The notes beneath the pieces were generated by a model, which saw nothing but the letters and a program-made list of their open reading frames with translations, was not told where the DNA came from and did not search any database. A program made the position numbers and the translations under genes. Positions 19,871 to 42,045 of a stretch of 64,000 bases of DNA are shown in pieces; the stretch's first letter is position 1; each line of letters opens with the position of its first letter. Origin of the DNA: Celeribacter persicus (lineage in GTDB: Bacteria; Pseudomonadota; Alphaproteobacteria; Rhodobacterales; Rhodobacteraceae); assembly GCF_003050785.1 (NCBI RefSeq), contig NZ_QAOH01000007.1:62001-126000 (forward strand), written 5' to 3'.

Positions 19871-20107
19871 TCAGGCCTCTTCACCATCGTAAAGATTGAT
19901 CGGCTGGGCCGGCATGATCGTCGAGATCGCATGTTTGTACACGAGCTGAGACTGGCCGTCCCGGCGCAGGAGGACGCAGAAATTGTCGAACCATGTGATC
20001 ACACCCTGAAGTTTGACCCCGTTGATCAAAAAGATCGTCACGGGAACTTTGGTCTTGCGAACATGGTTGAGGAAAGCGTCCTGCAGGTTCTGTTTGTCGG
20101 CGGCCAT
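19871..20107 (-). CDS. hfq: RNA chaperone Hfq
   Basis: 78 residues, typical of alphaproteobacterial Hfq. The Sm1 motif ([20 protein letters not shown], then NGVKLQG) and the Sm2 motif (YKHAIS) are complete; the acidic C-terminus (YDGEEA) is short. It forms a hexamer that matches small RNAs to mRNAs. This matters here because a candidate small RNA lies about 20 kb away beside oxyR. The start follows a purine-rich site about 8 bases upstream. Confidence 0.98.
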
Positions 20108-38514: not shown

Positions 38515-39063
38515 ATGAAAGCCGGTTACAAACTGCCCGAAGTGACCTTCCACACCCGCGTTCGCGACGACAGCATCGGCGGTCCGAACCCGTTCAAATG
38601 GGAGGACAAGACCACCTCCGATTACTTCGCCGGAAAGCGCGTCGTGCTGTTTTCCCTGCCGGGTGCCTTCACGCCCACCTGCTCCACCTATCAGCTTCCG
38701 GGCTTTGAAAAAGGTTTCCCGGAATTCAAGGAAATGGGCATCGACGCGATCTATTGCATGTCCGTCAACGACAGCTTCGTCATGAATAAATGGGCGCAAT
38801 CTCAAGAGCTTGAGAATGTCCAGGTGATCCCGGACGGTTCCGGCGAATTCACCCGCCGCGTTGGCATGCTGGTGCGCAAGGACAATCTCGGCTTCGGCCT
38901 GCGCTCCTGGCGTTACGCCGCCGTCGTCAACGACGGTGTCGTCGAAGCCTGGTTCGAGGAGCCGGGTCTGTGCGACAACCACGGTGAAGATCCCTATGGC
39001 GTGTCCTCGCCGGAAAACGTGCTCAAGTGGCTCAAGGGCGAAGCTGCGGAAGCTGTCGCTTAA
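38515..39063 (+). CDS. Peroxiredoxin (Prx5/AhpE-like)
   Basis: 182 residues, thioredoxin-fold. The peroxidatic Cys56 lies in PGAFTPTCST (49-58). The second half has FGLRSWRYAAVVNDG and a C-terminal Cys in EEPGLCDNHGED, the Prx5-type pattern. It reduces peroxides, including alkyl hydroperoxides, using thiol donors. AAGGAG ends about 8 bases before the ATG. It is convergent with oxyR over a shared terminator. Confidence 0.95.
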   Translation: MKAGYKLPEVTFHTRVRDDSIGGPNPFKWEDKTTSDYFAGKRVVLFSLPGAFTPTCSTYQLPGFEKGFPEFKEMGIDAIYCMSVNDSFVMNKWAQSQELENVQVIPDGSGEFTRRVGMLVRKDNLGFGLRSWRYAAVVNDGVVEAWFEEPGLCDNHGEDPYGVSSPENVLKWLKGEAAEAVA

Positions 39064-39086
39064 GACATACGCTCAATCGAGTTGAC

Positions 39087-39119
39087 AAAAGGCCCGTGGA
39101 TAAACCCGCGGGCCTTTTT
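39087..39119 (+). terminator. Rho-independent terminator of the peroxiredoxin gene
   Basis: Stem GGCCCGTGG (39091-39099) pairs with CCGCGGGCC (39106-39114) through one G-U pair, with a 6-base loop, preceded by AAAA and followed by TTTTT. It lies 24 bases after the peroxiredoxin stop and could also serve the convergent oxyR transcript, because the A-run supplies U residues on the other strand. Confidence 0.85.
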
Positions 39120-39201
39120 GCATCTGCAGCATCCCTAGATGTGCTGAATACGGTCGCATACCGGGAATACGCGCGACGCATGGCTTCCTCAGCCCATCCC
39201 T

Positions 39202-40125
39202 TCAAGCACGCGCCCGCGCCTCGCTCATCAACTCCTCCCCCGCATCCGCCAAAAGCGCCGCCAATTCCGTGAACCATGCCTTCACCTCGGTCGACTGCCG
39301 CCGCACCAAAGCAACAACGCGCTGCGGCTCCGGTTCCGGGAAACGCATCACCGCCATATCGGGGCTGGCCGCCATTTCCGAGCACAGCGCGATTTCAGGC
39401 AAAAGCGTCAGACCGAAGCCCTGCGCCACCAGCCCGCAGAGCGTCGCAAGCGACGAGGCCCCGAGATCGACCGATTGCCGGTTTCGTTTCAATCCGCAGA
39501 CTTCAAGCGCCTGATCGGCAAGGCAATGTCCCTCGTCCAGAAGCAGGAGCGTATCCGGAGACAGTTCCGTCGGACGCGGCACCGTGGCCTCGCTCAGCGC
39601 CGCGATCCGGGCTTTGGATCCGGCCAGAAGAAAGCGGTCGGTGAACAGCGGCTCCGCCATCAGCCCCTGCGTTTCGTAAGGCAGCGCGATCACCGCCGCG
39701 TCAAGCTTGCCAGAAGCCACAAGCGCGATCAGTTCCGCCGTCTGCGCCTCCCGCACCCGCATGTCGAGATCGAGCGCCGCCGCCTTGATCCGGGTCAGCG
39801 CACGCGGCAACAGGTAGGGCGCGATCGTCGGAATGACCCCCAGTGTCAACCGCCCGGTCAGCCCTTTTGAGAGCCGAATTTCCGCCTCCAGATCGCGGGT
39901 CATCGCCAAAATCTGCCGCGCCCGGTCCAAGACCACCTGCCCCGCCCGTGTCAGCCGAATATCTCGCGGCAGGCGCTCAACCAGTTGCGTTCCAAGCGTG
40001 GCTTCCATTTCCTTGATCTGCTGCGACAGCGCGGGCTGGGTCACATGCACGGTTTCGGCCGCCAGAGAAAAGCTGCGGGTCTCGGCCAGCGCAACGAAAT
40101 AAGTCATTTGTCTGAGCGTTAGCAT
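39202..40125 (-). CDS. oxyR: Peroxide-sensing LysR regulator OxyR
   Basis: 307 residues from ATG 40125 (five codons further upstream are open). The HTH is MTYFVALAETRSFSLAAE, with QPALSQQIKEMEATLG as recognition helix. Redox Cys201 and Cys210 in DEGHCLADQALEVC are spaced C-x8-C as in E. coli Cys199-x8-Cys208; this identifies OxyR among LysR proteins. Disulfide formation by peroxide switches the protein to an activator. A 15-base palindrome at 40139-40153 lies directly upstream. A structured transcript may run in the other direction. Confidence 0.94.
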   Translation of the reverse strand: MLTLRQMTYFVALAETRSFSLAAETVHVTQPALSQQIKEMEATLGTQLVERLPRDIRLTRAGQVVLDRARQILAMTRDLEAEIRLSKGLTGRLTLGVIPTIAPYLLPRALTRIKAAALDLDMRVREAQTAELIALVASGKLDAAVIALPYETQGLMAEPLFTDRFLLAGSKARIAALSEATVPRPTELSPDTLLLLDEGHCLADQALEVCGLKRNRQSVDLGASSLATLCGLVAQGFGLTLLPEIALCSEMAASPDMAVMRFPEPEPQRVVALVRRQSTEVKAWFTELAALLADAGEELMSEARARA

Positions 40126-40138
40126 GGCCCCTCCATTC

Positions 40139-40153
40139 ATTAGGATAACTAAT
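40139..40153. promoter_or_regulatory. LysR-type palindrome, probable OxyR operator
   Basis: ATTAG-GATAA-CTAAT is a perfect 15-base palindrome with the T-N11-A core of LysR boxes. It is 14 bases upstream of the oxyR start and overlaps the expected -35 of any transcript leaving in the plus direction (TACAAT at 40170-40175). Divergent control from one site is the common LysR layout. Confidence 0.6.
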
Positions 40154-40181
40154 ATCAGACTGCGGAAATTACAATTTCAAT

Positions 40182-40337
40182 TGATCGACCTGCGCCGCTA
40201 TGCCCGCACCACCCGGCAACGGGGAAATCCCGCCCCAGAGTAAGGCCGCGGGATCGGGTCGGAGACGGCCCACCTTGAGCACGTCTGCTCCGCGCAGACC
40301 AACTGACACCCGAAGGCTGGACCTTCGGGTGCTTTTT
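40182..40337 (+). ncRNA. Candidate small RNA divergent from oxyR (OxyS-like position)
   Basis: A transcript of about 155 bases is proposed. A weak -10 (TACAAT, 40170-40175) with a LysR operator at its -35 would drive it, and it ends in two tandem hairpins: GTCTGC/GCAGAC (40283-40299) and a 10-bp stem CACCCGAAGG/CCTTCGGGTG (40307-40331), then CTTTTT. No protein-coding gene on the plus strand precedes this terminator, which therefore needs an RNA to terminate. E. coli OxyS is likewise divergent from oxyR, but no sequence similarity to OxyS is claimed. The 5' end is approximate. Confidence 0.4.
40307..40337 (+). terminator. Strong rho-independent terminator without an upstream plus-strand gene
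   Basis: A perfect 10-bp stem, CACCCGAAGG (40307-40316) with CCTTCGGGTG (40322-40331), 5-base loop CTGGA, then CTTTTT. The nearest plus-strand coding gene upstream is the peroxiredoxin, which has its own terminator more than 1 kb away. Confidence 0.8.
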
Positions 40338-40373
40338 CAGGGCACATTTTGGAACGGTTATCGGGGCTTTGTC

Positions 40374-40520
40374 CCGGTCGTCCGGGACTCCGTCCGTGAA
40401 ATCCCCAAACGCTCCCCCGGAGCGTTTGCCGGAGCAAACCCCCGGACTGGCCTGCCCTCGCAAGTGTGCGAGGGCGTTCGCGCCTTGAAAAAATCCACTG
40501 GACCTTTTCATCCTGCCTAG
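40374..40520. repeat. Cluster of four hairpin-forming inverted repeats
   Basis: GTCCCGG/CCGGGAC (about 40374-40391), AAACGCTCC/GGAGCGTTT (about 40404-40424), GCCCTCGCA/TGCGAGGGC (about 40453-40474) and TCCTGC/GCAGGA (about 40509-40524) follow one another. They lie just downstream of the minus-strand DUF6456 gene, so they would form the 3' end of its transcript. None has a long U-tract. Confidence 0.6.
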
Positions 40521-40532
40521 CAGGACCGACGC

Positions 40533-41693
40533 TCACCCAATCAGATTGCTGTACCCGGCGGCGTCGTAGTGCTTTTTCAACCGTTGCAACGCAATGCGCA
40601 GCACGATCTTGCCGGAGCGTGCCGACCAGCCCATACGTTTTTCCGCCTGCTCCATGCCTTCGAGAAAACAGCAGCAGCGCAGCGCTACATCGCCAAGCCC
40701 CGGCCCGAGTTCCCCGAGAGCGACCGCGACCCGAGCTTTCGCCGCCTTCGCGCCAAAGCCCTGAACATCGCCCTTCACCCGCCCGGCATCGAGCAGGAAA
40801 CACTCCCAGTTCACGCCACCCTCGCCCATCTGCGCCAACTCGAAGTCTTCGCGCAGCCGCTCTGCCGCCGCAACCAGTTCGGTCGAGAGAAACATTTCGC
40901 CGTCCTTGTCGCGCCGCCGCGCCAACACCATCACCGGGCTCTCGGTGGCATTGTAGCGAATGCGCCTCGGACGGTTTTCGGCGCGCGGATCGGCGCGGAA
41001 GGGAAAGCTGTCGGATGTGACCTCGAACCGCACAGGCGCCTCGGCAAATCCGGCGCGCGCGCCCTCCTCTTCGGCCAGAAACCCGCGCAGCGCCGCCCGG
41101 CCCGCCGCAGTGATCGTGTAGCGCGTGATCTTGCCCTTGGCATTGGCGGCGATCCAGTCCTTGAGTGCCATGGCCTGTGCCACGGGCCGATCAAGCACCG
41201 CCGTGCGCGCCGTACGCCCGTCGGGCAAATCGCGCACCACCACCGCTTTCTCCATGTCTTTCGCCACCGCCAGACAGGCCCCCGGCTCCGACAGACGGCG
41301 CAGAATGCGGCGGGCTTCGCGTGCAATGGTCGCATCGTCCGGCGGGGTGGAACCGGTCGGCGCGTCGAACGGGCTTTGGTCAGTCATGACTGTCTTGTCC
41401 TTGGTATCGTGGGGGGAGGGGCGCAGGCACATCGGAGCCTCGACATCGGTCGCCCCCTTCGGCGCGAGACGGCTGAGCGAGGATAATACCTCGTCAATCA
41501 GCGGATCGTCCCGCTTCTGTTCGATCTTGCGCACCTGACGCATCACGGTCGAGGGCGCACAGCCTCCCCGTCGCGCCAGTTCGCGTATCGTGTCACCGCG
41601 TTCCGTATGCGCCAGATAGCGCTTGGCCTCCTGTGGCACCCATTCCGGAAGATACCTCCCCGACCCGACCGTTCCTTTCCCAGTTTCCAGCAT
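40533..41693 (-). CDS. DUF6456-type helix-turn-helix protein
   Basis: 386 residues from ATG 41693 (GGGGA 4 bases upstream); an in-frame ATG at 41726 lacks a ribosome site and would abut the CtrA-like box. An N-terminal HTH-like region (about 20-62, GDTIRELARRGGCAPSTVMRQVRKIE) is followed by a linker, a middle domain (RTAVLDRPVAQAMALKDWIA ... YTITAAGRAALRGFL) resembling a winged helix, and the C-terminal DUF6456 region (RYNATESPVMVLARRRDKDG ... LRIALQRLKKHYDAAGYSN). Probably a DNA-binding regulator confined to Rhodobacteraceae and relatives. The targets are unknown. Confidence 0.78.
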   Translation of the reverse strand: MLETGKGTVGSGRYLPEWVPQEAKRYLAHTERGDTIRELARRGGCAPSTVMRQVRKIEQKRDDPLIDEVLSSLSRLAPKGATDVEAPMCLRPSPHDTKDKTVMTDQSPFDAPTGSTPPDDATIAREARRILRRLSEPGACLAVAKDMEKAVVVRDLPDGRTARTAVLDRPVAQAMALKDWIAANAKGKITRYTITAAGRAALRGFLAEEEGARAGFAEAPVRFEVTSDSFPFRADPRAENRPRRIRYNATESPVMVLARRRDKDGEMFLSTELVAAAERLREDFELAQMGEGGVNWECFLLDAGRVKGDVQGFGAKAAKARVAVALGELGPGLGDVALRCCCFLEGMEQAEKRMGWSARSGKIVLRIALQRLKKHYDAAGYSNLIG

Positions 41694-42045
41694 ATTTTCC
41701 CCGGCATTCAGACTAATTGTTTCCATTTAAGACACAGTTAAGATTTGGGCCCCTTGCAATCGCACAGATTTCAACAGGATTTGCACAAGTTATCCCCCGA
41801 CTTATCCCGAATCCCAGATCAACCATGAGTTGCAATTGGTTACGCAAAGGTTAACTGTTTCCCGTTTTGTCATTGTAATTTCTTGTCTCTCAACAATATC
41901 ACGACAGATCGTTCGCGATATCGAAACAATACGCAACACATGCCAAGGTTGTGCAAAACTTCTTCTGTATCGTTTTATCCACGACCCGGCGCCCGGTACC
42001 GGACGGTGAAACCGGACAGGCGCCACCCCAACAGGAGATCCGCCC
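41694..42045. other. 352-base AT-richer divergent regulatory region
   Basis: This lies between the divergent DUF6456 and DUF6477 genes. It contains a CtrA-type TTAA-N7-TTAA box (41727-41741), three same-direction TTATCC motifs (41790-41798, 41802-41810, 41975-41983; the last, TTATCCACG, is one base from the DnaA box TTATCCACA), and the ribosome site AGGAGA before 42046. No gene is seen. Confidence 0.6.
41727..41741 (-). promoter_or_regulatory. CtrA-type binding site
   Basis: TTAA-GACACAG-TTAA is an exact match to the alphaproteobacterial CtrA consensus TTAA-N7-TTAA. It is 34 bases upstream of the chosen DUF6456 start (41693). CtrA controls motility, cell cycle and gene-transfer-agent genes in this group, so the DUF6456 gene may be a CtrA target. 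Confidence 0.55.

Follow-up and report, generated by a model that had tools for sequence, protein, structure and literature searches.

A probable regulatory RNA facing oxyR in two Celeribacter species, OxyS-like in position and not in descent

What might be transcribed away from oxyR, on the strand that faces it, in Celeribacter persicus? In the stretch of DNA analyzed here (64,000 nucleotides, hereafter the window), the minus-strand oxyR (39202..40125) is followed, beyond the candidate RNA, by a DUF6456 gene of like orientation (minus strand, end at 40533), so that a plus-strand terminator between the two genes is left without any nameable gene to serve. The initial annotation had placed a candidate small RNA here, divergent from oxyR, as OxyS adjoins oxyR in Escherichia coli and Salmonella (PMC11975290, available text); the arrangement was borne out, as a layout known from sequence. 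Here, we report that in two Celeribacter species, represented by the window genome (G000) and C. ethanolicus (G004), the oxyR-facing stretch probably encodes a regulatory RNA that resembles OxyS in position, not in descent.

The oxyR locus and the promoter facing it

The window OxyR belongs to the LysR family and carries HCLADQALEVC, which we take to be the redox-cysteine motif of an OxyR-type protein; its best NCBIfam match is NF008361 OxyR (207.6 bits, below the cut-off of 329). The start first assigned to it (40125, MLTLRQ...) stands, as an open reading frame (ORF) from 40140 would give five extra residues and 14/16 orthologue matches begin at query residue 3 to 6. A redoxin-family peroxiredoxin gene (38515-39063) is convergent on oxyR and has a match in the fetched flank of 15/16 genus loci. 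The hfq gene noted in the window may correspond to a protein recognized there by an Hfq-like motif pattern (minus strand, near 20032). Between the terminator and DUF6456, positions 40355-40530 hold palindromic, repeat-like units, parts of which occur again at two further genomic sites (87% over 55 bases and 77% over 78 bases); some other Celeribacter have blocks resembling these units at the corresponding position.

Among 20 genus genomes, 16 hold an OxyR orthologue (72-100% identity), three hold only a relative at 41-44%, and one has no match at the threshold used. The nearest named relative of the window OxyR is that of C. ethanolicus (93% identity). At the 16 orthologous loci, oxyR is faced by katA in six (G001, G002, G003, G009, G010, and G018), by the RNA in two (G000 and G004), and by neither product in eight. 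The LysR-type palindrome proposed at 40139-40153 (ATTAGGATAACTAAT; ATTAG-N5-CTAAT) is present with perfect 5-base arms, but it does not set the RNA loci apart: the box is perfect in nine of the 16 loci (2/2 with the RNA, 2/6 with katA, and 5/8 with neither) and has 8 to 9 of 10 arm bases in five more, which makes it recognizable in 14; G018 (a katA locus) and G006 have no recognizable box. No OxyR box sequence for Rhodobacter is given in the available text of PMC6956336.

The TACAAT proposed as a −10 element on the strand opposite to oxyR was found at 40170-40175 (plus strand). A simple promoter scan called no plus-strand sigma-70 site, with TACAAT lacking a good −35; its sole promoter-like site was on the minus strand (40151-40180, TTGAAA-18-GATATT), overlapping TACAAT by one base, and the promoter of oxyR seems to interlock with that of the RNA. 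Across the genus, TACAAT is intact in 8/8 katA or RNA loci versus 0/8 others, where the aligned bases are GACAAC (five loci), GACAAT (one), TACAAA (one), or not recognizable (one). The retained ACAA could serve oxyR as a −35 on the other strand (TTGT), and part of the conservation of TACAAT may, because of this overlap, serve oxyR; both end T residues, needed only by a plus-strand −10, are retained together only at loci with a product. TACAAT lies 31 bases from the LysR box start in seven of the eight katA or RNA loci, the eighth being G018 with no recognizable box, and when aligned outward from the box, katA and RNA loci run without gaps to TACAATTTCA/TACAATTTTA. Between G000 and G004, 41/48 bases at 40139-40186 are identical, with a run of 24; identity at fourfold sites is 64% in oxyR (112/176), 67% in DUF6456 (134/199), and 81% in peroxiredoxin (75/93). 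Exact TACAAT was found near oxyR in just two of the first 29 family loci scanned, which makes it a Celeribacter signature at most. OxyR control of the RNA is supported indirectly, through the gapless correspondence between its promoter and that of katA in sister species, and the promoter geometry is compatible with peroxide induction through OxyR.

Distribution in the genus and family

A plus-strand terminator within 500 bases was found at 2/2 RNA loci and 0/14 other genus loci, and the RNA is single copy in the window genome. Neither G000 nor G004 yielded a katA match at E up to 1e-40; katG is present in 17/20 genus genomes, both of these included, and G006 has a 44% catalase elsewhere in its genome. 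At the three loci with only an OxyR relative of 41-44% identity (L020, L021, and L022, in G011, G012, and G008), the relative adjoins katG and is divergent from it, perhaps as a replaced peroxide module. In the OxyR tree, G000 has G004 as its sister (91/93, not starred); with five of its 15 inner branches open, the tree does not fix how many times katA was lost.

Searched with a model of the two copies (R3), the 20 genus genomes had no match below E 0.3 outside G000 and G004 (further matches, E 0.32 and 0.43), and a reduced search of 394 family genomes, with G004 left out, stricter filters, and seven candidates scored per genome, gave only G000 at E 0.01. With the G004 copy as a DNA query, 106 of the 394 family genomes had a match (E up to 0.1); those listed outside G000 were short, spanning about 17-60 bases (best E, 4.3e-4), and were attributed to chance. 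Of the 22 matches that model R1 gave in the genus set of 20 genomes (E up to 10), two are the RNA; of the remaining 20, the next seven best (E 0.006-0.5) were judged by eye to be coding sequence or the terminator of a gene. A plasmid collection gave no match to the RNA.

For the family, the best 69 of 132 other genomes matching OxyR at 1e-60 were surveyed. Within 500 bases, oxyR is faced by a catalase in 35 of these 69 loci (katA, 27; katG, 8); the fetched 1.5 kb contains DUF6456 in 26, and eight have neither DUF6456 nor a catalase. The RNA raised by the initial annotation was found only in two Celeribacter genomes; the family neighbors of oxyR are mostly catalase or DUF6456. Terminator sites were found in four of the 34 family loci without a facing catalase: one is strong (L121), one lies inside a gene, and two are weak.

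L121 (G089, the one genome of its genus in the collection) is possibly a second, unrelated oxyR-facing RNA, its candidate region lying about 60-165 bases upstream of where oxyR starts. The promoter-like GCAATTTCA lies upstream of oxyR, and an 11-bp plus-strand terminator (GGGGCGCAGGG...CCCTGCGCCC, then TTTTT) lies about 95-120 bases out, preceding a convergent gene predicted by eye to be Hint-domain-like.

Structure and its conservation in C. ethanolicus

The predicted small RNA (40182..40337, plus strand) is about 156 nt long, its 5′ end being placed from the −10. Folding and alignment with G004 give hairpin 0 (40191..40208, with the conserved loop CGCUAU), hairpin A (40212..40223), hairpin B (40227..40254), hairpin C (40256..40271; tetraloop GAGA, GCAA in G004), and hairpin D (40283..40299; GTCTGC-TCCGC-GCAGAC), all on the plus strand, with the linker CUUGAGCA between C and D (40274..40281; 8/8 bases identical to G004). 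The intrinsic terminator (40307..40337; 10-bp stem, U5) was located by sequence, terminator scan, and alignment with G004, and agrees with the tandem-hairpin terminator first described: hairpin D precedes a CACCCGAAGG-CTGGA-CCTTCGGGTG hairpin at 40307-40331, then CTTTTT. The T tail is T5 in G000 and T6 in G004.

One genome alone offers modest evidence, given the missing plus-strand promoter call, a count of terminator-like sites at the shuffle level (three in 39000-42000; shuffle mean, 3.8), and a modest fold z-score (−2.37 with the terminator, with 6/200 shuffles as good; unremarkable without it, at −1.41 [window copy] and −1.54). It is comparison with G004 that raises the candidate above chance. 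Folded independently (pairs limited to 45 bases), the G000 and G004 copies each form six hairpins, whose order agrees. In the covariance check that had been suggested, a model of G000 alone found the G004 copy at full length (57.4 bits; E 2.8e-14), versus 31.1 bits for the same sequence modeled without pairs; parts of hairpins A and B are left unaligned by the model. In the model-fitted alignment, which is fitted to the structure and leans towards it, 98.6% of 74 cells are paired and 10 pairs are changed on both sides. Each of five pairing measures was reached by 2/500 shuffles, and slid structures gave 31-47% paired with 0-1 pairs changed on both sides. By hand, five of the six pairs of hairpin D differ on both sides; the model alignment counts two, with one cell broken.

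The number of the five G000 body hairpins that recur within 3 bases in G004 was also counted. Four of the five recur; full shuffles of the G004 body reached at most three (2 of 2,000) and four in 0/2,000, and shuffles with the conserved blocks kept reached four in 2/2,000. With long-range pairing allowed, the best folds of the two copies differ in their closing stems. The linker (UUGAGCA) is unpaired at 0.71-0.81 in local folds and 0.33-0.39 in global folds, and the conserved loop CGCUAU is unpaired at 0.69-0.91. As only two copies were found, the covariation rests on one pair of species, and in this pair both compensatory conservation of structure and absence of a conserved ORF were found. 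The structured, terminated, noncoding unit that the initial annotation had set opposite oxyR thus appears to be conserved, through compensatory changes, in a second species.

In intergenic DNA this rich in GC, hairpins arising by chance or a palindromic element would account for some of this, as GC content is 66% across the RNA stretch, shuffles also fold strongly, and repeat-like palindromes adjoin at 40355-40530. We consider this very improbable, however, in view of the single genome copy, the concordance and covariation tests, and three G-U pairs, which fit the plus strand, that of the U tail. A short coding gene is hardly credible. An ORF does run from ATG 40200 in G000, but it continues through the terminator, its start is unmatched in G004, and the two copies have neither a frame nor a start in common, leaving no conserved coding gene to which the terminator could belong; the two ORFs of the RNA stretch that were searched matched nothing in Pfam or NCBIfam (E up to 0.001).

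Possible origin and function of the RNA

The RNA is very probably a real structured RNA, and it might still lie beside oxyR by chance, constitutive or regulated otherwise than by OxyR. We know of no OxyR footprint at this promoter, which was counted towards this reading, and the LysR box may serve oxyR autoregulation, since a perfect box is commoner where there is neither product than where there is katA; its being perfect in only 2/6 katA loci weakens the inference to OxyR and lowers the odds of OxyR activation. Against this, TACAAT keeps the distance from the box that it has in katA loci, and the available text of PMC11975290 describes control and activation by OxyR of the facing katG catalase in Rhizobiales. 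We regard a structured RNA outside OxyR control as unlikely and activation by OxyR as, on balance, slightly probable. Quite unlikely, too, is a relict of a deleted katA, in which a functionless transcript would run between a leftover promoter and terminator. That katA was not found in G000 or G004, when it occupies the corresponding promoter in 6/16 genus loci, favors such a relict, as do the G018 katA terminator arms (CCTTCGGG and CCCGAAGG), which have the letters of the RNA terminator in swapped order, but the other five relatives have katA terminators whose sequences differ, and no katA sequence was recognized in the RNA when six katA loci were compared (best E, 0.10). TACAAT is, moreover, lost in the eight loci with neither katA nor the RNA, and hairpins with paired changes and a promoter identity above that of fourfold sites are unexpected of junk.

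The explanation that we moderately favor as a whole is an RNA made from the former katA promoter, switched by OxyR, and acting in trans. The promoter correspondence, the terminator, the lack of a common frame, and the hairpins kept by paired changes can be read from the sequence itself. A noncoding RNA of ~156 nt would be transcribed away from oxyR by a promoter corresponding to that of katA in sister species; oxidized OxyR, bound around 40139-40153, would switch it on under peroxide; and the RNA would act in trans on mRNAs via its loop CGCUAU and the linker CUUGAGCA, perhaps with assistance from Hfq. A role as a trans-acting antisense regulator is assigned tentatively. In this lineage, katA would have left the locus, by loss or relocation, and its promoter would have been retained because it drives the RNA.

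Like OxyS, which has an intrinsic terminator and no protein product, the Celeribacter RNA faces oxyR, ends at an intrinsic terminator, and encodes no protein; unlike it, the RNA shares its promoter with the catalase gene of sister species and was found only in two Celeribacter genomes. The lack of sequence similarity to OxyS remarked on earlier is confirmed: the RNA has no Rfam match at gathering score, the OxyS family (presumably RF00035) included, and OxyS is not among Rfam matches at E up to 5, where the weak matches Scr3202, sX11, and ncS037 fall far below their cut-offs. If the reading of OxyR and mRNA targets is right, the RNA would work like OxyS without membership of its family.

The oxyR-catalase pair shares with the RNA both its place and its promoter geometry, the product being catalase there and RNA in Celeribacter; oxyR is described as adjoining katG (katA in some studies) in both Rhodobacterales and Rhizobiales, with a bidirectional promoter in Rhizobiales (PMC11975290, available text). 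Another alphaproteobacterial LysR regulator beside a small RNA is VtlR/LsrB of Agrobacterium, which directly activates its neighbor AbcR1 (PMC7486931, available text); there, abcR1/abcR2 lie downstream of vtlR and the regulator is not OxyR, and the Celeribacter RNA matches no Rfam family. Stress-induced small RNAs are also described in Rhodobacterales relatives, namely Pos19 of Rhodobacter, a member of the RpoE regulon that both singlet oxygen and peroxide induce and that the title of its paper calls a small coding RNA (PMC5036791), and the oxidative-stress RNA RSs0680a (PMC3413700); nothing in the available text of either source places them beside oxyR. A literature search, with subscription papers mostly outside it, found no report, by title or abstract start, of an oxyR-facing RNA in Celeribacter.

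The origin of new regulatory RNAs is an open question. It is possible, and somewhat doubtful, that an OxyS-like regulator was born here by promoter capture after the loss of katA, with oxyR-facing RNAs arising independently in enterobacteria and Rhodobacterales; L121 may represent the same promoter-capture step in another genus. Celeribacter holds three states of the locus (oxyR-katA, oxyR-RNA, and empty), one of them in the named species C. ethanolicus, so that the origin of the RNA, promoter capture, and convergence with OxyS are directly testable within one genus.
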